The notes under the pieces: generated by a model
What the model was told of the DNA's origin: nothing
Seen by the model: only the letters and a program-made list of their open reading frames with translations
Database searches by the model: none
IMG/VR virus record: IMGVR_UViG_3300025093_000134
Span: 1 to 22,890 of that record
From: a virus
DNA length: 22,890 nt
Reading direction: 5' to 3' (one strand)
Position numbers and translations under genes: made by a program
Part shown: piece by piece, positions 1 to 12,458 of the stretch
How the letters are laid out: every line of letters starts with the position of its first letter
Position numbering within the stretch: position 1 is the first letter of the stretch

Positions 1-390
1 GAGCTTTCGAGACACGTCAAGAGGTTGTGTAGCATTCAAAATCAACCAATATTTGTGTGCGTTGAGTAAGTAGTATTGTGACTGTTTAGCTTTAAGAGCT
101 TGACAACGCCATTTTTCGAAGTCAAAGCTCGATTTATAACGACTGCTGCCCATCGCGCACTCAGATTGGCGTATGTCAATTTGTAAATCGATGTCTGTGA
201 TTGTGTAGCCGATCGCTGAAATTTTTGCCTCACAGTCTTTAACAGAAGTAGGAGGCTCGTTGTCCGAGTAAATCCAAGGCGGCAGGTTTGGAATAATGTA
301 TTTTTCTTCCCAAAGAGAAGGTTTATGCGGCCTTACTTCCGAAGTGGAATGATTCGAGAATGTCCTCGATGTACCTGTTGAAATTCCCAT
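1..390 (-). CDS. Partial hypothetical protein, runs off left edge
   Basis: An open frame on the minus strand begins at ATG 390-388 and stays open to base 1, giving at least 130 codons. The C-terminus lies outside the window. I do not recognise the family. The first ~25 residues are Ser/Thr-rich. The body reads like a folded protein, with many Tyr, Trp and charged residues, for example 'PPWIYSDNEPPTS' and 'FDFEKWRCQALKAKQSQYY'. No signal peptide or membrane segment is apparent. Its start overlaps the 3' end of the winged-helix gene by 68 nt, so the two are probably cotranscribed. No later ATG, GTG or TTG occurs near the start in this frame, and a TTG lies a little upstream. The amino-acid make-up and the gene order on the same strand support it over the 63-residue ORF in another frame at 42-233. 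Confidence 0.6.
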   Translation of the reverse strand, partial: MGISTGTSRTFSNHSTSEVRPHKPSLWEEKYIIPNLPPWIYSDNEPPTSVKDCEAKISAIGYTITDIDLQIDIRQSECAMGSSRYKSSFDFEKWRCQALKAKQSQYYLLNAHKYWLILNATQPLDVSRKL

Positions 391-757
391 TGATGCAATA
401 AAGCGTGTGGTGTTCAAATCGGGTTCTGGTAACAAGATCGAGCTTTCTAAGTTTTTTAAGCTGCTCGCGAGTAGTCGCCTGAGACTGACCCAAAGCCTCA
501 GATAATTCGTTTACATCAGTCGGTTGAAGGGACTGTAACTCATAAATTAAAAAACGCAGCTTTTGGATTTGGTTATATCTCTTTTTATTCTTCGAATTGA
601 TCTCTCTGACAGCTCTATAGAGAGCTTCTCGTGCAAAAGCTGCTTGATGGTTCCGGGGGATATCTTTTGTCTGATAAGAGCTTCCACCGTTTGGCGAGCT
701 GCCAAGGGAAGTGTTGTGTCCTTTGTTGTTAGGCATAGGTGGTAAGGGTTGATACAC
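323..757 (-). CDS. Winged-helix DNA-binding protein (ArsR-like fold)
   Basis: A 144-residue frame with GTG start at 757; an ATG eight codons in (736) is an alternative. Residues ~62-135 look like a winged helix. A helix 'QKLRFLIYELQ' is followed by 'DVNELSEALGQSQATTREQLKKLRKLDLV' (helix-turn-recognition helix), then a wing 'TRTRFEHHTLYCIN' and a C-terminal helix. This pattern is typical of ArsR/MarR-type regulators; no metal-binding set is obvious. The first ~60 residues are low-complexity and overlap the upstream HNH-HTH gene in another frame. The real product may therefore be shorter, start at a non-standard codon, or arise by frameshifting from that gene. A DNA-binding regulatory role is inferred from the fold only. 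No convincing Shine-Dalgarno site precedes either start. Confidence 0.6.
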   Translation of the reverse strand: MYQPLPPMPNNKGHNTSLGSSPNGGSSYQTKDIPRNHQAAFAREALYRAVREINSKNKKRYNQIQKLRFLIYELQSLQPTDVNELSEALGQSQATTREQLKKLRKLDLVTRTRFEHHTLYCINGNFNRYIEDILESFHFGSKAA

Positions 758-1236
758 TTTGAATTACAGCACTTAGAACGCACACAGTGCTCTGGTTTAA
801 CCTCTTTTCTCCAGAATTGAGTGAAGATAAACCTCCTTGTGCGTTGGTATTGGGCGTCGTTAGGTCCTTTGTACAGACCTCCGTCGTCCGGAAACTCCAG
901 GCAAGCCTTGGGATCGAGGGTTGCTCGGTGCATGTTGAGCCACGCAAGAAGACGCTCGGACTTGTAGGTAGCCGTTTGGTGCTCTTCTCGACAGATCTCA
1001 CAGGCGTGGATGCCATCGAAAGGAAGCAGCACGTTTGCTGAGTCCTGAGAGCTGATAGTGATCGGCTGAGATCGACCACACCGGCAGGACCAAACGACAA
1101 CGTCACCGTAGTCCAGGACATCCCAGTGCCCACGGATGGTCTGAGAAGTTGGCTGACCAGGCGGACGAACTGGTGCCGAAGGCTGAAGAAGCCCCAAAAG
1201 CGCCGCCAGACGGGCGTCGCGAGTGTTCATAAGCAT
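547..1236 (-). CDS. HNH-type endonuclease with C-terminal helix-turn-helix
   Basis: A 229-residue protein with ATG at 1236. The N-terminal half has a Cys pair C51/C53 and a CxxC at C79/C82, suggesting a zinc-binding segment. Residues 150-168 read H-C-x4-C-C-N-x2-C-x-N-P-x-H-L, the zinc/active-site signature of HNH_3-like homing endonucleases. Residues ~180-220 ('ARQTVEALI' to 'SERSIRRIKRDI') look like a helix-turn-helix, as in phage-borne HNH enzymes that use an HTH for target recognition. A free-standing homing endonuclease or DNA-binding accessory protein is the likeliest role. The gene ends at TAA 549-547, inside the winged-helix frame, with a run of six T just before the stop. It is the first gene leftward from the 1237-1585 noncoding region and is probably controlled from there. 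Confidence 0.65.
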   Translation of the reverse strand: MLMNTRDARLAALLGLLQPSAPVRPPGQPTSQTIRGHWDVLDYGDVVVWSCRCGRSQPITISSQDSANVLLPFDGIHACEICREEHQTATYKSERLLAWLNMHRATLDPKACLEFPDDGGLYKGPNDAQYQRTRRFIFTQFWRKEVKPEHCVRSKCCNSKCINPYHLCLTTKDTTLPLAARQTVEALIRQKISPGTIKQLLHEKLSIELSERSIRRIKRDITKSKSCVF

Positions 1237-1585
1237 GTTGTTGTTCTTGTCTTAAGAGACTAACACACAGAGCGCACAGAAGGAGAGTATCGACAGATTT
1301 TCAAAAGGATAAGACTTTTTCACTTGAAGGTTTTTCCATACGTGCTGGCTGGTGTCGGGTGTCGATAAAGACGCTATCGCAAGGACACGGAGGCCAAAAA
1401 CTCTTACTTTTCTAATTTAATTACTTAATACGTATACTTAGACGTCTATATAGATACGAATTAAGAGACACACTGCTTAGATTTGAGCGTTCTAACGGAC
1501 TTTATTAGGTAACAACAGTCGCAAGCTCCCGTGGAAGGCAGTGTGAGTCATAGTGTTATACAATTTGATTAATAGATTAAGTATC
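1237..1585. promoter_or_regulatory. Divergent noncoding region
   Basis: About 350 bases lie between the leftward HNH gene and the ATG of the small rightward gene. I see no convincing coding frame on either strand. The middle (about 1405-1465) is very AT-rich and holds the dyad element annotated separately. Transcription must start here in both directions, so promoters are expected, but I cannot point to a clear sigma-70 -35/-10 pair. The rest shows no recognisable gene, tRNA or terminator. Confidence 0.5.
1424..1465. promoter_or_regulatory. 42-bp dyad-symmetric element (operator, origin or cruciform candidate)
   Basis: The arms at 1424-1435 (CTTAATACGTAT) and 1454-1465 (ATACGAATTAAG) are inverted copies matching at 11 of 12 positions. 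The spacer contains a perfect 10-bp palindrome, TAGACGTCTA, at 1439-1448, almost centred on the dyad. The left arm includes the 8-bp palindrome ATACGTAT (1428-1435), and CTATATAG (1446-1453) is another. The element lies between divergent genes. It could bind a dimeric or multimeric regulator (the nearby winged-helix or HTH proteins are candidates), act as a replication start, or be an integration or resolution site. No run of T follows it, so it is not a normal terminator. Confidence 0.6.
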
Positions 1586-1744
1586 ATGCGACTCACCTGC
1601 AATTCCGAATCTCCTCCGACCTGGCAAACGATCCGAGAAAGAGCTAATCAATTAGGGATCCCTGCCTGGAAACTTGCTGAAGAACTTGCTTTTCACGAGG
1701 ACAAAGAAACTTTGAGATTTTCAGACACATCGAATAACGGGTAA
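1586..1744 (+). CDS. Small hypothetical protein
   Basis: A 52-residue frame from ATG 1586; an in-frame GTG at 1553 would add 11 residues. I do not recognise it. Residues ~12-35 ('TWQTIRERANQLGIPAWKLAEELAFHED') could form a helix-turn-helix-like pair of helices, and the tail is polar. The ATG is preferred because the extra N-terminus is poor in coding character. It sits between the divergent control region and the strong ribosome binding site of the fibre region. A small DNA-binding or regulatory role is possible but unproven. Confidence 0.45.
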   Translation: MRLTCNSESPPTWQTIRERANQLGIPAWKLAEELAFHEDKETLRFSDTSNNG

Positions 1745-2779: not shown

Positions 2780-3268
2780 ATGGCAATCGTCAGCCTTGTC
2801 GCAGGTGAGACTATTACTGCTGGTCAAGCAGTTTATATCAACTCATCTGGTCTTGCTCTAAGGACCCAGGCTGACGGTGGCAACATTGATTTAGCAGCTT
2901 GTGCGGGTGTCGCCCAGGACACAGTTCTTGAAGGTCAAAGTTTTCGGTGTAACGTCGACTCGGTATCAACAATACCGAGTGCCGCTTTCACACCAGGAAC
3001 TGCGCTTTTCCTACACCCATCTAATGATGGAGGATTAGCTGAGTACGATGTATTTGCTTCTGGTGTAGCAGCAACTGCGGCTGTAGGTCTTTATTTGACC
3101 CGTGTGGGCACAGCGCTGACCACTGATCGACTGGCCGTTGAATTAAAAAGACCCATATTTATTAATAACACTACATCGATCCTTCTTATGGAGACTGCAT
3201 CTGGATTGGTTGTAGATGCTATCCTGGATGAAGATGGCTTTAGAATTGACACAGAAGGTGCGCTCTAA
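2780..3268 (+). CDS. Fibre-cassette 1 head protein, beta-rich, possible trimerisation or attachment role
   Basis: A 162-residue protein beginning 'MAIVSLVAGETITAGQAVYI'. It is beta-rich with no signal peptide or membrane segment. The pattern 'G..ITAGQAVYINSSG' followed by 'GVAQDTVLEGQSFRCNV' is like small phage decoration/DUF2190-type modules, which carry 'aG..V...' and 'GiA......G..v.v' strands. It is a distant counterpart of the 165-residue protein at 8288-8785, which occupies the same position in the second cassette. The spacing to the next gene is 2 nt, so they are translated together. A base or adaptor that links the stalk to the virion is plausible. I cannot prove it is not a capsid-decoration protein. 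Confidence 0.6.
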   Translation: MAIVSLVAGETITAGQAVYINSSGLALRTQADGGNIDLAACAGVAQDTVLEGQSFRCNVDSVSTIPSAAFTPGTALFLHPSNDGGLAEYDVFASGVAATAAVGLYLTRVGTALTTDRLAVELKRPIFINNTTSILLMETASGLVVDAILDEDGFRIDTEGAL

Positions 3269-3270
3269 TT

Positions 3271-4059
3271 ATGCCTAGCCAGAAGATATCCCAGTTTCCA
3301 GCTCAAACGACCGTAGCGTCGGGCGATATCCTGGCGCTTGTAACTGTTTCGGGCAGCACTTTTGATAATAAACGAATAGGAATTGACGTTTTAGACGGTA
3401 GATATCACGCCACTGCTTCTGGCGGCGCGGCATTAGAAATCGCTGTCGAAGCTCTTGCTTCTGGCAACGCTGCTTTAACTGATTCTGTAGAAGCACTTGC
3501 CTCAGGTAACGCAGGCATTTCTATTGCAATCGCTTCAGGTAACGTTGCTCAAGCTTCTGGTAACGCAGGTATTAGCCTTGCGATTGCTTCTGGTAATGTT
3601 GCTCAAGCTTCTGGTAATGCAGCTCTTGTTGATGCATCAGCTGCTCTTGCTTCAGGTAACGCAGCACTTACCGACGTCTCAGGTAAGTACGACAAGACGG
3701 GTGGACCTATTACAGGCACTGTAACCGTTCAGGATCAGTCCATCGGCACCGTGGGCAACCAAGGCGTTCGTAATGGCACAATTACACTTGATTTTGCTTC
3801 AGCAAATAATTTTGAATTTGTCCTTGATGGGACTTCTACGCTTGGTGCACCAACAAACGCCAGCGGCGGTCAGTGCGGTGCTATTACAGTCCGCCAAGAC
3901 AGCACTGGATCGCGTACTCTTGCTTACAATGCGGTGTTCAATTTTGCCGGTGGCACTGCACCGACACTTACGACTACAGCTAGCGGGGTTGATGTAATTT
4001 CATTTTATGTTTCGTCCCCGACTGAGATTCAATCCGTTGCTGTTTTAGATCTCCAATGA
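3271..4059 (+). CDS. Fibre stalk protein with ASGN coiled-coil repeats (cassette 1)
   Basis: 262 residues. Residues 1-50 form an N-terminal module ('QKISQFPAQTTVASGDILALV', a common phage fibre start). Residues ~58-137 hold seven ASGN(A/V) repeats starting at 63, 77, 88, 95, 106, 113 and 127. The spacings of 14, 11, 7, 11, 7 and 14 are heptad and hendecad steps, which suggests a trimeric coiled-coil stalk. Residues ~138-262 form a C-terminal beta domain ('KYDKTGGPITGT', 'TLGAPTNASGGQ', 'TGSRTLAYNAVF', 'FAGGTAPTLTT') known in phage fibres. Its paralogue at 8813-9601 has exactly the same length. Its stop codon overlaps the next start (ATGA at 4056-4059), indicating coupled translation with the giant lectin-like protein it probably carries. 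Confidence 0.75.
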   Translation: MPSQKISQFPAQTTVASGDILALVTVSGSTFDNKRIGIDVLDGRYHATASGGAALEIAVEALASGNAALTDSVEALASGNAGISIAIASGNVAQASGNAGISLAIASGNVAQASGNAALVDASAALASGNAALTDVSGKYDKTGGPITGTVTVQDQSIGTVGNQGVRNGTITLDFASANNFEFVLDGTSTLGAPTNASGGQCGAITVRQDSTGSRTLAYNAVFNFAGGTAPTLTTTASGVDVISFYVSSPTEIQSVAVLDLQ

Positions 4060-7000
4060 TTCCTGGACAGGCTCAACAGTTTTTTGAAGCAGCCGCTGCT
4101 CAAGCTGGTGGCGGTGACCATCAGATTGAACGCAGCTTGCGTTTTAATGAAGATGATACAGCCAATTTATCGAGGACTTTTAGCACTTTTACAGACCTAA
4201 ATGTAGGCACTATATCTTTTTGGTTAAAAAGATCAGGTTTAGGTGCTGGTGTTATTGCAGCAGGTTGGGATGGAGGTGTTTCTTACAGTGGTTCGATTCA
4301 ATTCAATTCGTCTGATAATGCTCTACAAGTAAGTATCGGCGGTGCTGCTGCCTATACCTTTAAAACAAATGCAATTTTAAGGGATACTAACGCTTGGTAT
4401 CACGTAGTCGCAGCCTGGGATCGGGGTGCTGCTGCTGCCGACAAAGTAAAAGTTTGGATTAATGGTGTTGCTCAGACATCAAGTACCACAGCGTATCAGT
4501 CTTGGACTTCTGGTGATTGCCAGATATGGGCTAGTAATAGCGGAAACAGAATAGGCCGTGGCGACGCAGATAGGTATGGCAATTTTTTAAATGGATATTT
4601 AGCTGAATATCATTATGTAGATGGACAAGCACTTGATGAATCTAGTTTTGGACAATTTGACACAAACAATAACTGGAATCCAAAGGCATACTCTGGATCG
4701 TACGGATCAAATGGTTTCTATTTAAAATTTGCTGACAACAGTAGTGATTCTGCGCTTGGGACCGATAGTAGCGGTAATGGTAATAATTGGACTGTTAACA
4801 ACATTAATGCTGCCGACGGGGCTGCTGTAACAGTTGGTGCAGCTAATGGCGGACTGCCGATCCGGAACACTTCAGGTGACCAAGGAGGCACACCTGTCTC
4901 AGGGTTTAGATCAGACTCGTCATCAAGCCAACTTTTTCTTGCGCTTCCGTTAAATACAAACACTAGCGACGTAAGCAACTCAATTAACAGCGGTAGTACA
5001 ACAAAAACAACTACTAACCAGAGCACAGCTACGTCTTCGACGCAGGCAAGATTCTACGGCGCGTCAAGCTATTGGAACGCTAACACTGACGGAATCCTTG
5101 TAGCAGAGTCAGGTTCTGAACTTGTTGTCGGCACGGGTGATTTTACTATTGAGCTTTGGTTCTATGACGACAGTAATCATGGTGGAGGAGGATCTGGAAG
5201 ATGCTATTTGTTTGACAATCGGATTGGCGGTTCAATTGTTGGGGATCCTCCGACTATTACTGGATATGTCGACGGCAGTAGTGACATTAAATATGGATCT
5301 AGTGGTGGCGGCACGATTACAAGTTCACAAGGTACAGACGGAGTAAATAATAAATGGTTTCATTTTGCAGCAGTTAGAAACAGCGGTACAACAACCCTTT
5401 ATATCAACGGAACTTCTGTTGGCTCGCACTCAGATACTACCAATTACACAAATAACGGTTTTGGCATCGGCAGGGCTACTGACGGTGGTTACGGATGGGC
5501 TGGATATATTCAGGACTTCCGTGTATATAAAACTGCAAAATATACTTCAGACTTTAACATTCCTGCTGAAGCCAATCCGACGATAGGTGCTGATTGCGAC
5601 AGCCTGATCGATTCACCGACAAGTTACACGGCAGAATCTGGCAACAACGGTGGTAATTATGCGTTGTTAAATCCTCTTTCTATTATCCAAAGCGTTAGTG
5701 GAGATACATCTACGCCAACTTTCTCTAACGGAAACCTCACTTACGATGGAGTTAGTAGCAAGTGGGGTCCTGGCTTTGGGTCTATTGCAATTCCTTCTTC
5801 TGGCAAATGGTATTTTGAGGCGACTCTTGCCAGCACCACTGTTAACGCAGTTGTGGGGATAGCTAAATACCTTTATGCAACTGGAAATAGATTTTGGGAT
5901 CAAGGTACTGGCACTCAAACTTTGTTTAAATCTGCGGGCGGAGGTATTACACACAACAGCACATCTCTAGCCTCTGGCACTTCCCTTTCAGCTTCAGATG
6001 TCGTCGGTGTTGCCATCAACTGTGATGATGGTGAAGCGAAGTTCTACCTAAATGGCGCGCTAGAGGCAACGGTAGACATTCCAGCTAATGTAGTGGCAGC
6101 CATTGACGATGGAGAGGCTTTTCCGTTTGTTGACTCATATAACGGCGTTGATTGGTATTTAAACTTCGGCTCTCGCCCATTTGCGTTCACGCCACCAACA
6201 GATCATGTAAGTCTCTGCACGCAGAATCTGAGTGATCCATCGATTCCTAAATCTTCGACGGCGTTTGACACCAAATTATGGACTGGCAATGGTACTGCTA
6301 GGTCCATCACAGGGTACGACTTTAGTCCTGATTTTGCATGGATAAAAGACAGGACTGGAACTGATTACCATTCTTTCATTGATATTGTCAGAGGCGGAAC
6401 TAAGGTCGTTTTTTCTAATGTTACTAATGCCGAGGAAACACAATCACAAGCAATTACCTCTTTCAATTCAGATGGATTTGATCTTGGAACTTGGCAAGCT
6501 GTAAACAAAAATAGTGGCTCTTTTGTCGGCTGGACCTGGGACGCTGGAACTTCAAACACCTCACTTAGTGTTGGCGATCTAAATAGCTCTGCTTACAACA
6601 CAAGTCAGACGTGGAGCAGTAACGTTAGTGGTGGTTCTGGTGCATATGGAGCTGCTGCTAATGCTTTCAATGGCTCGTTAAGCAACTTTGCGTCACCGGA
6701 ATACAGTTCCCCGATGACGTACACCAACCCGTCAGCGTCCGATACTGTAATTAGCACGTTCGAGTTATACCTGGATATTTATACAATGTCTGGTATTACT
6801 CTAGAGCTGAATGACACAGACATTACGTCTCAAGTGTCTACTACTAAAAAGTGGTACAGCATTTCAGGATTTAGTGGTGATAATTTCAGTAAGCTTTATT
6901 GGCGACCTACTTCCGGCAACTTTGAAGTGCGGATATACGCAATTAGAATTAACGGGCAAATATTACTTGATAACGGTGTAACTCCTCCAAACGTCCCGAC

Positions 7001-7667
7001 AGTTGCTTCAACCTATCGCGCCAATCCAACCGCTGGCACCAGTATTGTCACTTGGACCGGTGCGGCAAATGCTACCGTTGGACATGGTTTAAACGCAGCC
7101 CCGGAGCTTGTCTGGACCAAGTCCAGAACAAGTGCTGTATCTTGGCGAATTTGGAGCGCTGCATTCCCTAACGCTGCAGCTAATTATTTGGGATTTGATA
7201 ATTCAGGTATGGGAACATTCGCTGGCACTTATTGGGGGGATATGAATTCACAAACAATAGGATTGGGTGACGGCACTTACGACAACAATACTGGCGACAT
7301 GGTTGCCTTCTGCTTCGCGCCTGTCGAATCGTATAGTGCCTTTGGCAGTTTTGAAGGCAGCGGAAATGCTGATGGTCCGTTTATTTATACAGGTTTTAGA
7401 CCACGTTTTATACTTATGAAAAACATCGATAACGCCGGCAGTGGATACGACTGGTTTACTTTTGACACAGCGAGAGATACTTACAATGTTTCTGAAAAAA
7501 TTCTTCTAGCGAATACAAACGGAGCAGAGTCTAATTCTGATACAGTCGATATTTTGTCTAATGGATTCAAGATTAGAACAACTGCGAACGGAGTCAATTT
7601 GAACGCACATACGATAATCTACGCCGCCTTTGCTGAGCATCCCTTTAAAACCGCCCGTGCTCGATAA
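4056..7667 (+). CDS. Giant multi-domain lectin-like tail fibre protein (cassette 1)
   Basis: 1203 residues. In order: LamG/concanavalin-like domain (~24-210, with 'GTISFWLKRS', 'AWYHVVAAWD', 'VKVWINGVAQ'); a second LamG (~333-505, 'FTIELWFY', 'KWFHFAAVRN', 'TTLYINGTSVG'); a SPRY-type domain (~530-715, 'SGKWYFEATL', 'DVVGVAINCDDGEAKFYLNG'); and a phage C-terminal fibre domain (~738-835 and ~985-1203, 'LWTGNGTARSITGY', 'DSLIDS', ending 'YAAFAEHPFKTARAR'). That last domain is interrupted by an extra beta-sandwich module (847-973). These folds bind carbohydrate or protein surfaces, so host receptor binding at the fibre tip is the likely role. There are no catalytic signatures and no signal peptide. 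Compared with the 951-residue paralogue at 9603, it has one additional LamG and carries the 847-973 module at a different place. Confidence 0.8.
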   Translation: MIPGQAQQFFEAAAAQAGGGDHQIERSLRFNEDDTANLSRTFSTFTDLNVGTISFWLKRSGLGAGVIAAGWDGGVSYSGSIQFNSSDNALQVSIGGAAAYTFKTNAILRDTNAWYHVVAAWDRGAAAADKVKVWINGVAQTSSTTAYQSWTSGDCQIWASNSGNRIGRGDADRYGNFLNGYLAEYHYVDGQALDESSFGQFDTNNNWNPKAYSGSYGSNGFYLKFADNSSDSALGTDSSGNGNNWTVNNINAADGAAVTVGAANGGLPIRNTSGDQGGTPVSGFRSDSSSSQLFLALPLNTNTSDVSNSINSGSTTKTTTNQSTATSSTQARFYGASSYWNANTDGILVAESGSELVVGTGDFTIELWFYDDSNHGGGGSGRCYLFDNRIGGSIVGDPPTITGYVDGSSDIKYGSSGGGTITSSQGTDGVNNKWFHFAAVRNSGTTTLYINGTSVGSHSDTTNYTNNGFGIGRATDGGYGWAGYIQDFRVYKTAKYTSDFNIPAEANPTIGADCDSLIDSPTSYTAESGNNGGNYALLNPLSIIQSVSGDTSTPTFSNGNLTYDGVSSKWGPGFGSIAIPSSGKWYFEATLASTTVNAVVGIAKYLYATGNRFWDQGTGTQTLFKSAGGGITHNSTSLASGTSLSASDVVGVAINCDDGEAKFYLNGALEATVDIPANVVAAIDDGEAFPFVDSYNGVDWYLNFGSRPFAFTPPTDHVSLCTQNLSDPSIPKSSTAFDTKLWTGNGTARSITGYDFSPDFAWIKDRTGTDYHSFIDIVRGGTKVVFSNVTNAEETQSQAITSFNSDGFDLGTWQAVNKNSGSFVGWTWDAGTSNTSLSVGDLNSSAYNTSQTWSSNVSGGSGAYGAAANAFNGSLSNFASPEYSSPMTYTNPSASDTVISTFELYLDIYTMSGITLELNDTDITSQVSTTKKWYSISGFSGDNFSKLYWRPTSGNFEVRIYAIRINGQILLDNGVTPPNVPTVASTYRANPTAGTSIVTWTGAANATVGHGLNAAPELVWTKSRTSAVSWRIWSAAFPNAAANYLGFDNSGMGTFAGTYWGDMNSQTIGLGDGTYDNNTGDMVAFCFAPVESYSAFGSFEGSGNADGPFIYTGFRPRFILMKNIDNAGSGYDWFTFDTARDTYNVSEKILLANTNGAESNSDTVDILSNGFKIRTTANGVNLNAHTIIYAAFAEHPFKTARAR

Positions 7668-7714
7668 GATCTGATTTAACGGTTATACTTAACTTATAAA
7701 GTATCGAAGTCGCC

Positions 7715-8284
7715 GTGTTAGTTCTCGACGGAAAAACACTGCAGTATGACCGTCCTTTTTCACACGACGGTATTAACTACCCTGCAAACTGGCTTCGTTT
7801 AACGACTCTGGCTGAAAAAGAAGCCATTGGTATTGTTGAACAGCCTGATCCAGTAACTTCGAGTTACGATCAAAGATTTTGGTGGGGCGTAGATAATCCT
7901 AAAAATCTTGATGATCTAAAAATTGTTTGGAAAAATAAAACATCCGATACTGCTAGTTCTTTCCTAGCGCCGACTGACTGGTACGCGATTCGCAAAGCCG
8001 ACACTGGCGTAGCTATTCCCACTGATTGGTCTGATTGGCGTCAAAGCATCCGTGTGGCAGCTTCAACCAAGCAAACTGCTATTGATGCAGTTACGACTGT
8101 CGCTGAGTTAGAGACATACATCACGACAAACGATGGTGCAGACAGCGATTATCCAGTTTGGCCGCTCGATCCCGACCAAGTAGCTGCTTTACCGACGCCT
8201 GAGCCGACGCCTGAGTCTGAGTCCGTCGTTACTGGTGGAACAGTTTCGACCGAGAGTGAAGATGTAGTCGATTTAGGAGGCTAA
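7715..8284 (+). CDS. Tail-fibre-assembly-like protein
   Basis: 189 residues, GTG start at 7715. The first ~60 residues read 'LDGKTLQYDRPFSHDGINYP' and 'ANWLRLTTLAEKEAIGI'. Next comes 'APTDWYAIRKADTGVAIPTD' leading into 'RQSIRVAAS'. This fits the 'L-x-x-T-D-W-Y-x-I/V-R-x-x-E/D-x-G-x-x-I-P ... R-x-x-I/V-R' signature of tail-fibre-assembly (Caudo_TAP) and related DUF4376-like proteins. The C-terminus is acidic and Pro/Thr/Ser-rich. Such proteins often follow the fibre gene they act on and help it fold or trimerise. This one lies between the two fibre cassettes, so it may serve either. No Shine-Dalgarno site precedes the GTG, but the reading frame has good coding character from that codon. Confidence 0.65.
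   Translation: MLVLDGKTLQYDRPFSHDGINYPANWLRLTTLAEKEAIGIVEQPDPVTSSYDQRFWWGVDNPKNLDDLKIVWKNKTSDTASSFLAPTDWYAIRKADTGVAIPTDWSDWRQSIRVAASTKQTAIDAVTTVAELETYITTNDGADSDYPVWPLDPDQVAALPTPEPTPESESVVTGGTVSTESEDVVDLGG
8275..8280 (+). promoter_or_regulatory. Shine-Dalgarno site of cassette 2
   Basis: AGGAGG ends 7 bases before the GTG at 8288 and lies inside the last codons of the preceding gene. It decides the start of the 165-residue protein, and suggests that cassette 2 is translated strongly and in coupling with the assembly-like gene. Confidence 0.7.
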
Positions 8285-8287
8285 TTC

Positions 8288-8785
8288 GTGACTAATCGGT
8301 CGATCTTCAACCGCCGGTATACCTCGTATAGCCCTGCTGGCGTTGAGGTTTACCTGCTGAACGGCGCTGGTATTTCGTCGCAGCTGAATCCAACTTTCGA
8401 CTTTGAGCTCGGTGAAGACCTTGATTCTGGTTCTGTTGTTTACGTAAGCGGTGCAGTTATTCTTGCTGCATCTGCTGCTTCTGGAACTATCTCCGATGCT
8501 GCTTATGCGGTTGGTATTACGACTGTTTCTGGAAACGCAGGGGCAACTGTCCCTGTAGTCACCGATGAAATCGCAACTGTAGACAGTCAAAATATTACAC
8601 ACCAGAGCACTTTGACCCCTGGTCGTTATTACTATCTGTCGACGGTTCCTGGTCAGGTCACCTTGATTGAACCTTCAGGTATCACTGCTTCTGGTGGATT
8701 CCAAGCCTCAACCCTTGTAGGCATGGCACTCACCCAGTCCGATATTCACTTAGAAATCGATGGTCCTGTTTTCTTAACTCCCTGA
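8288..8785 (+). CDS. Fibre-cassette 2 head protein, beta-rich
   Basis: 165 residues from GTG 8288, placed by the AGGAGG site. It reads 'RRYTSYSPAGVEVYLLNGAG', 'GEDLDSGSVVYVSGAVILAA', then beta strands and a C-terminal 'SDIHLEIDGPVFLTP'. The pattern 'G..l.sG.vVYvs...' and the final 'rlaVEl..PiF/ lhLEIdgPvFl' strand match the 162-residue protein at 2780-3268, so the two are probable divergent paralogues heading the two cassettes. The role is probably structural, linking or capping the fibre stalk; this is inferred from gene order. Confidence 0.6.
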   Translation: MTNRSIFNRRYTSYSPAGVEVYLLNGAGISSQLNPTFDFELGEDLDSGSVVYVSGAVILAASAASGTISDAAYAVGITTVSGNAGATVPVVTDEIATVDSQNITHQSTLTPGRYYYLSTVPGQVTLIEPSGITASGGFQASTLVGMALTQSDIHLEIDGPVFLTP

Positions 8786-8812
8786 GTTAGACTGTAATTA
8801 AAATATTTCGTC

Positions 8813-9601
8813 ATGGCAGATCGTCAGCCTATTGTTTTAGTCAGCGGCGCTTTCGCTGAACTGCCTCCGGGCGACGGAATTATTGGTGCAAGTGTAACTC
8901 TTATAAGTAATCCAAGTGGTTTATATACACTTGGTGGAGAACTTGGATATGACGGCACAGCTATTACAGCGCTTGCCTCTGGTAACGCTGCTCTTTCGGA
9001 TGTAGCTGGAGCAGTTGCCTCGGGTAACGCTGCACTCGTTGATTCCGCTGAAGCTCTTGCCTCTGGTAATGCAGCTCTAACCCTTGCTGTTGCTGAAGGT
9101 GGGGCACTTGCCTCTGGCAATGCTGCTTTAGCTGACGCAGCTACCGCACTTGCCTCAGGTAACGCAGGTATTGCTGACGCAGCGACTGCGCTTGCTTCAG
9201 GTAACGCTGCTCTCACTGATGTGGGCGGCAAATACGACAAAACGGGTGGTCCGATCTCAGGCACCGTACGCGTAGAAAAGCAGTCATATGCTGATGTCCG
9301 TGACGAAGGGCTCGAAAGCGGCACTATTACTTTGGACTTTGGGTCATCCAATAACTTCAAAATGACTTTGACCGGAACCTCCACCCTCGGCGCACCAACA
9401 AACGCCAGTGGTGGTCAGTCCGGCAGTATTTTTATTCTTCAAGACGGTACGGGATCACGTACGCTCGCTTATAACGCTGTTTTTGCGTTTGCTGGAGGCA
9501 CCGCACCGACCTTGACTACTGCAGCTAGCGGGCAAGATGCGCTTCTGTATTACGTTCAAGATGCGAGTACCATTATTACAACGTCCGTTCTGAACGTTTG
9601 A
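8813..9601 (+). CDS. Fibre stalk protein with ASGN coiled-coil repeats (cassette 2)
   Basis: 262 residues, ATG 8813. Six ASGNA repeats start at residues 55, 69, 83, 100, 114 and 128, spaced 14, 14, 17, 14 and 14; this is mostly double-heptad spacing and predicts a coiled-coil stalk. The N-terminal 50 residues differ from the cassette 1 stalk, while the C-terminal ~125 residues are close ('KYDKTGGPISGT', 'STLGAPTNASGGQ', 'TGSRTLAYNAVFAFAGGTAP'). Divergent N-termini with conserved C-termini suggest that the C-terminal domain serves as a common joint to the lectin-like protein. The stop at 9599-9601 is one base before the next ATG. Confidence 0.75.
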   Translation: MADRQPIVLVSGAFAELPPGDGIIGASVTLISNPSGLYTLGGELGYDGTAITALASGNAALSDVAGAVASGNAALVDSAEALASGNAALTLAVAEGGALASGNAALADAATALASGNAGIADAATALASGNAALTDVGGKYDKTGGPISGTVRVEKQSYADVRDEGLESGTITLDFGSSNNFKMTLTGTSTLGAPTNASGGQSGSIFILQDGTGSRTLAYNAVFAFAGGTAPTLTTAASGQDALLYYVQDASTIITTSVLNV

Positions 9602-9602
9602 T

Positions 9603-12458
9603 ATGGCTGCTTTAGACGGTCTAACTCCAGCGATTATCGGCGCTGCAAATTCTGCCAGTGCAGATTTTGCAATCGAACGCAGCTTGCGTTTTAATGATGG
9701 AGACACTCCAGAATTAACAAGAACTCCTAGTAGCACTGGCAATACAAATACATTCACGCTTTCTTTTTGGGCCAAAAGGTGCCTGCTAGGCTCAACGCAA
9801 ATGATCGTACAGACTGGAGATGATTACTCCAATTTGTTTAGGGCTTATTGGGATGGCAATGATAATTTTCGTTTTCACCAATATAACGGCTCCTATGTAA
9901 TGGATTACACTACAAGTGCAGAATATAGAGATGTAGGCGCTTGGTATCACTACGTTATTGCAATAGATACGACACAAGCAGTAGCAGCTGATAGGGTCAA
10001 AGTTTATGTAAATGGTGCTGAGATAACTGATTTTTCAGCAACAACCGACCCATCTTTAAATTTAACGACTGGTTGGAACGCTGCGATCACGCAACGTATC
10101 GGCAGAGAGTATACAACAACGTATGGAAATTATTACAACTACGGTGGTTATCTAGCAGAATTCTACAATATCGACGGTCAGCAACTTGCTGCGTCTGACT
10201 TTGGTGAATATGACAGCGATAATGTGTGGCAGCCAAAACAGTATCAGGGAGGCTTTGACGATTGGTTTGATACAAGTCAGACCTGGAGCGGTCTTTGGAG
10301 CGGTTCAGTAGGTTACGGTTCGTTTGCGAATCTGCATGACACTAATCTTACTAACTATATGCAGTCGCTTGATGCGACTCTGACGCTTTCATCGCCTATT
10401 GCAGTCACCTCTCTGCGAATACTTCTCCAAAGATACGGAGCTTCCGGAACATCACTGTCTATTAATGGCACTGATGAGTCCAGTCAGCTTCCTAGCGCTC
10501 CATCAGGAATCGTTTGGGTTGATATTACTGGAGTTACATCTCTAACATCGATTAATGTTACTAGCGGTGATTACTCTTCTAACACTCTTGGCTTATACGC
10601 CATTGAAGTGAATGGAAAGCTGTTACTTGACACAGGAACAAGTGCTTCTAATAACGGCTTCCATCTCGATTTCTCCGATAACAGCAGCACCTCTGCGCTT
10701 GGAACAGATAGCAGTGGCAATAGTAATAATTACACTGTTACTAATCTTTCCGTTACACCAGGCGTAGATAACGACAGTCTCCTTGATTCACCAACAGATG
10801 GTGATACTACAGGCGACACTGGGGTGGGCGGACAAATATCGGGAAATTACTGTGTAATTAATCCTCTAGGAAGAAGTGCAAATAATCCTACAGTTTCAGA
10901 TGGAAATCTGAAAATGGTTCTTGGTGCTGCTCAAGGCACTCGACACGGAACCATGGGAGTGACGAGTGGAAAATGGTATTTTGAAGTTGTGTATACAGCA
11001 GCTACTGCTTTTGATGGAATGGTTGGCGTTGCCAACAAGAATCACGAAAACAATTTGGGCAACTATATAGGCGGAGATTCAGACAGCTGGGGATATTATT
11101 ACGACGGTCAAAAATACCATCCTGGTCAGAGTGGTGCCTACGGAGCTAGTTGGACCACTAACGATGTGATGGGTATCGCCCTTGATATGGACAACGGTGC
11201 TCTTTATTTTTCAAAGAACGGGACGTATCAAAACGGAGGTGACCCAACTAGCGGTGCGAGTAAAACAGGTGCAGCATTCACAAACCTTTCAGGCACTATT
11301 TTCCCAGGACTAAATGCATATGGCGGCACACAATTTGTAAATTTTGGGCAGAGACCGTTCAACACAAGCGCTCCAAGTGGTTATAAAACTTGGAATACTG
11401 CAAATCTTCCAACCCCAGCTATCGCCGACGGCGCGACGGCACTTAACGCAACCTTGTGGACCGGAACCGGCAGCAGTAAATCAATCACCGGTTATGGTTT
11501 TGCCCCAGATTTTGTATGGATCAAATGTCGTAATAACACTGCATCTAACGCACTGCTCGATATCGTTAGGGGAAGTTCACAGGTTTTGCGTACTGACGGT
11601 ACTGCCGCACAAACCAACAACACAACCGTGTGGACATCTTTTGATTCAGACGGTTTTACACTGGGTGCAGACACCAGCAATGGTTGGACTAATTACAACA
11701 CTTGGACGTATGTTGGCTGGGCATGGAAAGCTGGCAGTTCGACCGTAACTGTTGCAAAAGACGCAAACGGGACCAATCTTCCTGGTGCAGAATGTCAAGT
11801 TAGAGCAAATACCACTAACGGCACTTCGATCGTAGTAGTTGCTAACCCTCAGGCTAATGAAGCCCGTGTTCACGGACTTAATGCCGCTCCTGATTTCTTT
11901 ATTTGTAAAAGCACAGCTTCAGCAGACAGTTGGCATTGTTATTGGAGTATTCTGGGATACACAAAATACATCAATTTGAATGGAACTGGCCCTGCTGTTA
12001 CAAGCGACCAATTTGGTTCACAAGATCCTGACTCGACATATTTTTATGTGAAACCGGTTACTGGGTCTGGTGCAAATAAAAGCGGAGGTATGGTTTATTA
12101 CCTATTTACCACCGTGGAAGGCTATAGTTCCTTCGGCAAATATACTGGCAACGGAAATTCAGATGGTCCGTTTATTTCTACAGGTTTTAGACCAAAATGG
12201 GTATTAATTAAATCTTCTAGTGATACTGGGAATTGGGGTCTTTGGGATACAGAAAGAGACACCTTTAACGTTTCTACCAAACGACTTCAACCACAAAGTG
12301 GTGCTGCTGAAAGCGGCAATGATCCAAATGTTTACATTGATATTTTGTCTAATGGTTTCAAAATAAGAAACTCAGACACTGATTCAAACGGTAGTTCGAG
12401 AGAGTATATTTATGCCGCATTTGCGGAGCATCCGTTTAAGACTACCCGTGCGCGGTAA
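9603..12458 (+). CDS. Large multi-domain lectin-like tail fibre protein (cassette 2)
   Basis: 951 residues. The N-terminus resembles that of the 1203-residue protein ('AIERSLRFND'). Domains: LamG (~24-215, 'FTLSFWAKR', 'AWYHYVIAID', 'RVKVYVNGAE'); beta-sandwich module (222-346, 'DTSQTWSGLWSG', 'LYAIEVNGKLLLDTG'); short linker; SPRY-type domain (~414-585, 'SGKWYFEVVY', 'DVMGIALDMDNGALYFSKNG'); C-terminal fibre domain (~617-951, 'LWTGTGSSKSITGYGFAPDF', 'DGPFISTGFRPKWVLIK', ending 'YAAFAEHPFKTTRAR'). Its likely role is receptor binding at the fibre tip. It lacks the second LamG of its paralogue and carries the beta-sandwich module after the first LamG rather than inside the C-terminal domain. 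Confidence 0.8.
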   Translation: MAALDGLTPAIIGAANSASADFAIERSLRFNDGDTPELTRTPSSTGNTNTFTLSFWAKRCLLGSTQMIVQTGDDYSNLFRAYWDGNDNFRFHQYNGSYVMDYTTSAEYRDVGAWYHYVIAIDTTQAVAADRVKVYVNGAEITDFSATTDPSLNLTTGWNAAITQRIGREYTTTYGNYYNYGGYLAEFYNIDGQQLAASDFGEYDSDNVWQPKQYQGGFDDWFDTSQTWSGLWSGSVGYGSFANLHDTNLTNYMQSLDATLTLSSPIAVTSLRILLQRYGASGTSLSINGTDESSQLPSAPSGIVWVDITGVTSLTSINVTSGDYSSNTLGLYAIEVNGKLLLDTGTSASNNGFHLDFSDNSSTSALGTDSSGNSNNYTVTNLSVTPGVDNDSLLDSPTDGDTTGDTGVGGQISGNYCVINPLGRSANNPTVSDGNLKMVLGAAQGTRHGTMGVTSGKWYFEVVYTAATAFDGMVGVANKNHENNLGNYIGGDSDSWGYYYDGQKYHPGQSGAYGASWTTNDVMGIALDMDNGALYFSKNGTYQNGGDPTSGASKTGAAFTNLSGTIFPGLNAYGGTQFVNFGQRPFNTSAPSGYKTWNTANLPTPAIADGATALNATLWTGTGSSKSITGYGFAPDFVWIKCRNNTASNALLDIVRGSSQVLRTDGTAAQTNNTTVWTSFDSDGFTLGADTSNGWTNYNTWTYVGWAWKAGSSTVTVAKDANGTNLPGAECQVRANTTNGTSIVVVANPQANEARVHGLNAAPDFFICKSTASADSWHCYWSILGYTKYINLNGTGPAVTSDQFGSQDPDSTYFYVKPVTGSGANKSGGMVYYLFTTVEGYSSFGKYTGNGNSDGPFISTGFRPKWVLIKSSSDTGNWGLWDTERDTFNVSTKRLQPQSGAAESGNDPNVYIDILSNGFKIRNSDTDSNGSSREYIYAAFAEHPFKTTRAR

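Follow-up and report, generated by a model that had tools for sequence, protein, structure and literature searches.

A short noncoding element at a divergent gene junction of the 22,890-nucleotide viral stretch analysed here (the window) is probably a single-copy bipartite protein-binding site, either an operator or an activator site, within a divergent control region. Its sequence is conserved at a constant position, in one copy per genome and in two spacing states, and it is restricted to one phage family; from these comparisons we infer protein binding and transcriptional control. To judge by its sequence, the window comes from an uncultured group of relatives of Synechococcus phage S-EIV1 (KJ410740), the closest isolate in the collection searched, with which a related genome of ~80 kb shares 69% identity in the major capsid and 50% in the terminase. 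The S-EIV1 group accounts for 3.3% of cyanophage content in ocean data (Nishimura et al. 2017, PMC5332604). As a control element the feature is conserved and of a generally known kind, in a phage family that has been little studied, and it provides a concrete control element for a widespread cyanophage lineage of which the collection searched contains a single sequenced isolate. The junction and its neighbours are laid out as follows:

323..757, minus strand: ArsR/MarR-type winged-helix protein (Pfam HTH_5, 6e-9), in a frame that overlaps the HNH gene
547..1236, minus strand: HNH-like protein (PHROG endonuclease/HNH matches, alignment, AlphaFold2 model with pLDDT 82)
1237..1585, no strand: divergent intergenic control region between the leftward HNH-like gene and the rightward small ORF (ORF list; synteny)
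1259..1288, minus strand: second conserved motif, GCGCACAGA-like and repeated in tandem, immediately upstream of where the HNH gene starts (motif discovery)
1405..1460, no strand: the conserved element, 56 bp without a difference between the window and its 7 closest relatives
1528..1564, plus strand: GTGG-N2-GCAG-like box and TATACAAT (-10-like, 1557-1564), conserved in alignments, with a poor -35
1586..1744, plus strand: small conserved ORF of 52 aa with an invariant P-A-W-x-L-A-E, the first rightward gene

The block at 1405-1460 is invariant across eight contigs (the window and seven others) whose surroundings differ by up to ~14%, identity between the window and its sister clade being 86% across 700 bp. 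With the leftward HNH-like gene as the query, 45 loci were found, 44 of them at 35-97% identity, and the order of HNH gene, element and small ORF is maintained in relatives down to 35% HNH identity. Motif discovery by expectation-maximisation, run on 23 non-redundant upstream regions, yielded two motifs, both noncoding; one of them is the element, which 20 of these 23 regions carry at the equivalent divergent junction, mostly in a shorter form (TWATACGTWTATMTARATACGA). A matrix trained on marine short forms only, with the window clade and freshwater relatives held out, recovered the element in three held-out window-clade regions (P < 0.001) and in the five freshwater relatives L132, L137, L138, L144 and L147 (P < 0.001); matches were weak in L135, L140 and L141, and L125, L129, L130 and L142 had no significant match to this matrix. 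L142 carries a degenerate copy at the same offset, and L117 a degenerate version. The loci L125, L129 and L130 are without a clear element yet keep the HNH, winged-helix and small-ORF genes, and the three proteins are therefore not strictly tied to the element.

Each of three large genomes holds one copy of the element. Searched as an exact pattern, it matched nine times among 2.9 million viral contigs (seven relatives known from the other searches, one further fragment with the small ORF and one unrelated contig) and once among 84,980 species genomes, in an uncultured Flaviramulus. The two exact matches outside this phage family are probably due to chance, and as an exact pattern the element is nearly absent outside the family. 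Membership in a host regulon was considered and rejected on that single bacterial match. The element region has no match to an Rfam family at E up to 1.

Attention had been drawn to this spot in an earlier note, which proposed a dyad-symmetric element; the spot was right and the reason partly wrong. The symmetric parts and the units from which they are built are the following:

1424..1465, no strand: the proposed dyad (12-bp arms, 18-bp spacer), its right arm disrupted in the sister clade and more so in L112
1428..1435, plus strand: outer left half-site H1, ATACGTAT, matching the left half of the short-form element
1430..1453, plus strand: two 12-bp units, ACGTATACTTAG and ACGTCTATATAG, from alignment with the L069 short form, the units being compared by eye
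1440..1447, plus strand: inner half-site H2, AGACGTCT, the core of TAGACGTCTA, which is clade-specific, derives from the extra 12 bp and is not present in short-form relatives
1454..1461, minus strand: right half-site H3, ATACGAAT (ATTCGTAT on the minus strand)

The inverted repeat described in the note is borne out, with 11 of 12 positions matching between its arms (1424-1435 and 1454-1465), which flank an 18-base spacer, and the nearly centred 10-bp palindrome TAGACGTCTA is found at 1439-1448, 1 bp from the dyad centre. The note is slightly in error over one palindrome: 1424-1465 holds three of 8 bp, starting at 1428, 1440 and 1446 (ATACGTAT, AGACGTCT and, at 1446-1453, CTATATAG), and ATACGTAT belongs to the left arm and not to the spacer; an additional 10-bp palindrome, TCTATATAGA, occupies 1445-1454. 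The claim that such symmetry is far above chance was overstated: the window contains five equally good inverted repeats, against 2.15 +/- 1.9 in dinucleotide shuffles. The chance of such a repeat within the 349-bp intergenic region alone is 0.034, and for three 8-bp palindromes in this 42-mer P = 0.037. Symmetry alone gives little reason for interest, and the comparative evidence, 56 bp identical in eight contigs, is stronger.

Comparison of the aligned sequences suggests that relatives conserve the sequence of the element and not its symmetry. The earlier note had named a failure of the symmetry to be conserved, compensatory changes included, in relatives that keep the flanking genes as the result that would speak against it. 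The outcome is divided: the symmetry appears not to be kept, and compensatory changes are absent, yet the element sequence itself is strongly conserved. In the right arm of the sister clade GAACCAAG stands in place of GAATTAAG (AATTAAG to AACCAAG), which breaks two pairs without compensation, and in L112 (74% HNH identity) the centre is TATACGTCTA, so that the TAGACGTCTA palindrome is broken, and the right half is altered too. More divergent relatives have the short form at the same junction (TTTAATACGTTTATATAGATACGAATTTGACGAC in L069, CTTATACGTTTATAAATAAACGATCTTGACGACA in L065 and CTTAATACGTTTATCTAGATACGACTCTA in L144), beyond which the window clade carries 12 bases. From the comparison of short and long forms it follows that the proposed dyad is the outer half-site H1 paired with the right half-site H3. 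The agreement of ACGTATACTTAG and ACGTCTATATAG at 9 of 12 positions suggests that the 12-bp insertion of the window clade arose as a tandem duplication of an ancestral ACGTTTATATAG, and the palindrome TAGACGTCTA sits at the junction of the two units. In registered 22-bp sites a mean of 5.9 of the 11 pairs are complementary, versus 3.0 for windows elsewhere in these regions. Paired variable positions showed no covariation (1 extra pair type versus 2.3 in shuffles), and a dimer-type dyad is therefore not demonstrated. The locus offers a worked example of functional-looking symmetry that turns out to be mostly lineage-specific once relatives are compared.

The CG steps of the element are spaced at either 14 or 26 bp. 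On the tree of HNH-like proteins these two states require at least two changes, the long state having arisen twice, in groups (the window clade and L140/L141) that are far apart. In the distant pair L140 and L141, the element was independently lengthened by the same 12 bp, with no obvious duplication.

The earlier note had listed an operator in the divergent control region among its options, and this reading fits an element that is conserved, single-copy and noncoding, with genes for putative DNA-binding proteins alongside. A regulator, most likely encoded by the phage, would recognise a pair of half-sites, each centred on CG (ATACGTWT ... ATACGA), set on an AT-rich core. Its targets would be the HNH/winged-helix genes to the left, the small-ORF and tail-fibre genes to the right, or both groups. 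In the window clade, a 12-bp duplication-like insertion would have added a half-site and so produced the striking symmetry. A tolerance of approximately one helical turn in the spacing of the CG steps is in keeping with a pair of contacts on the same face of the double helix, although the 12-bp increment is somewhat longer than one helical turn, which counts against the binding-site reading.

Several known systems resemble such a site in part. Operators of the lambda OR/OL type are short, partly symmetric half-sites between divergent genes, near genes for DNA-binding proteins, and here too intergenic, partly symmetric half-sites lie beside putative DNA-binding protein genes; in contrast to lambda, there is one element per genome and no array of near-identical operators, and the dyad is without covariation support. 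A lytic/lysogenic choice at the element is unlikely because no integrase was found. AraC-type regulators tolerate half-sites moved apart by roughly one additional helical turn, which recalls the two half-sites at 14 or 26 bp; however, neither an AraC-type protein nor a sign of looping was seen here, and the increment is 12 bp rather than 10.5. The NtcA box of cyanobacterial and cyanophage promoters, GTA-N8-TAC, resembles the element in the similar spacing of its GT...AC steps, but on visual inspection the GTA/TAC triplets are not preserved, the block that is conserved is longer, and the element, as an exact pattern, is nearly absent from bacterial genomes.

It might be argued that the element is itself a phage-specific promoter, with a -10-like TATAGATA/TATAAATA box used by the host polymerase together with a phage factor, which would leave a long leader ahead of one of the divergent genes. 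The conservation of the AT-rich core (TATAAATA/TATAGATA/TCTAGATA), the intergenic location and the -10-like hexamers readable on both strands would suit this proposal, which we nevertheless consider unlikely: the element is single-copy in each genome, a consensus scan of 1150-1850 found no sigma-70 promoter with -35/-10 hexamers at 16-18 bp, and separate promoter-like boxes lie nearer both genes. Moreover, the two independent +12-bp changes would alter the -35/-10 spacing, and 12 bp would break a promoter that spans the element. A single-subunit RNA polymerase was not detected either, in a search that had no positive control and does not prove absence. A regulator site fits better than a -35/-10 promoter because the element is conserved between divergent genes, single-copy, bipartite and tolerant of 12 bp. 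A T7-like promoter, to which a TAATACG match at the left arm pointed, was also tried and rejected, as the genomes hold no further copies of the element. An explanation by chance, with a fortuitous dyad and incidental conservation, draws on the facts that the inverted repeat, taken by itself, is no rarity in the window and that its symmetry is lost in relatives; it is very improbable given that the underlying sequence is conserved in held-out lineages (P < 0.001), and it is largely refuted for the element while still fair for the exact 12-bp arms.

The earlier note also considered a replication origin, which the phage SF3-type helicase would open, and a resolution site. The origin has in its favour an AT-rich single-copy element, a tandem GCGCACAGA repeat at a distance of ~150 bp, and the presence of a D5/SF3 helicase gene in these genomes. 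The GC-skew computation that the note had called for shows no switch at the element: the skew has the same sign on either side in the window and in three large genomes (G047, G040 and G016, the last an 80-kb relative), and the origin is therefore disfavoured. In addition, three lineages are without a clear element and one has a degenerate copy, the helicase and polymerase genes of G016 are ~20-30 kb distant, and the ends of the G016 record comprise a long noncoding region of divergence, which makes a stronger candidate for the origin; taken together, an origin at the element is distinctly improbable. The G016 ends (L091 1-760 and L094-L095) carry a ~700-bp near-identical terminal repeat, largely noncoding and rich in GC palindromes, where replication and structural genes diverge. 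A role in recombination, resolution or packaging, or as a cruciform, would be in keeping with an imperfect dyad with repeated half-sites, yet it is extremely doubtful. Six related genomes or contigs, fragments among them, yielded no Phage_integrase (PF00589) or Resolvase (PF00239) domain in a search in which the positive controls matched, and in G016 the terminase lies ~24 kb from the element. Hairpin potential is weak in the window (z = -1.9) and absent in the two relatives tested (about -0.2 to -0.5, the L107 stretch beginning inside the element), which, with the lack of an integrase or resolvase domain, disfavours the resolution site.

If the element is a regulator site, the binder could be encoded by any of three conserved neighbours, the HNH-like, winged-helix and small-ORF genes. 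The first two, in agreement with the earlier note, are putative DNA-binding protein genes (HNH-like; winged-helix, Pfam HTH_5) that adjoin the element. The HNH-like protein (547-1236) keeps its zinc ligands, with a Cys/His pattern CINPYHL, and carries Ser or some other residue at the position of the first catalytic His, which has apparently been replaced; the residue that aligns, weakly, near the catalytic His98 of I-PpoI is not His. A fold search with this protein returned nothing significant, the resemblance to I-PpoI being weak, and the AlphaFold2 model has a three-helix domain at the C-terminus. The protein is possibly a nuclease turned DNA-binding protein. The winged-helix gene is conserved in the loci of relatives, G016 included, and within 323-1236 its frame overlaps the end of the HNH-like gene by ~190-210 bases, an overlap that is kept in relatives. 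The small ORF occurs at this junction in all 22 of the 22 relatives aligned, and the model of its product is of low confidence, with two short helices. S-EIV1 itself is without the small ORF, the winged-helix protein and both motifs, and has only a weak HNH-domain match elsewhere. A more specific scenario, in which an HNH-derived protein lacking the catalytic histidine and its overlapping winged-helix partner would bind the 12-bp-switching bipartite site and time tail-gene expression in S-EIV1-like cyanophages, seems quite unlikely; if true, it would constitute a previously undescribed phage regulatory system.

The rightward box at 1528..1564 is a possible promoter for that direction, as its sequence suggests. 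The tandem GCGCACAGA-like motif was assigned to all 23 of the 23 non-redundant junction regions, weakly in L117, and is a probable leftward promoter or operator. This tandem 9-bp repeat (of the AGCGCACAGA type, at 1259-1288) is more widely conserved than the 1405-1460 element, and G047 has a second, weaker copy in noncoding DNA near 44,841 (L098). Further to the right, 2780-12458 contains an apparent duplication of a three-gene tail-fibre-like cassette that encodes cement-like, ASGNAAL-repeat and large adhesin-like proteins.
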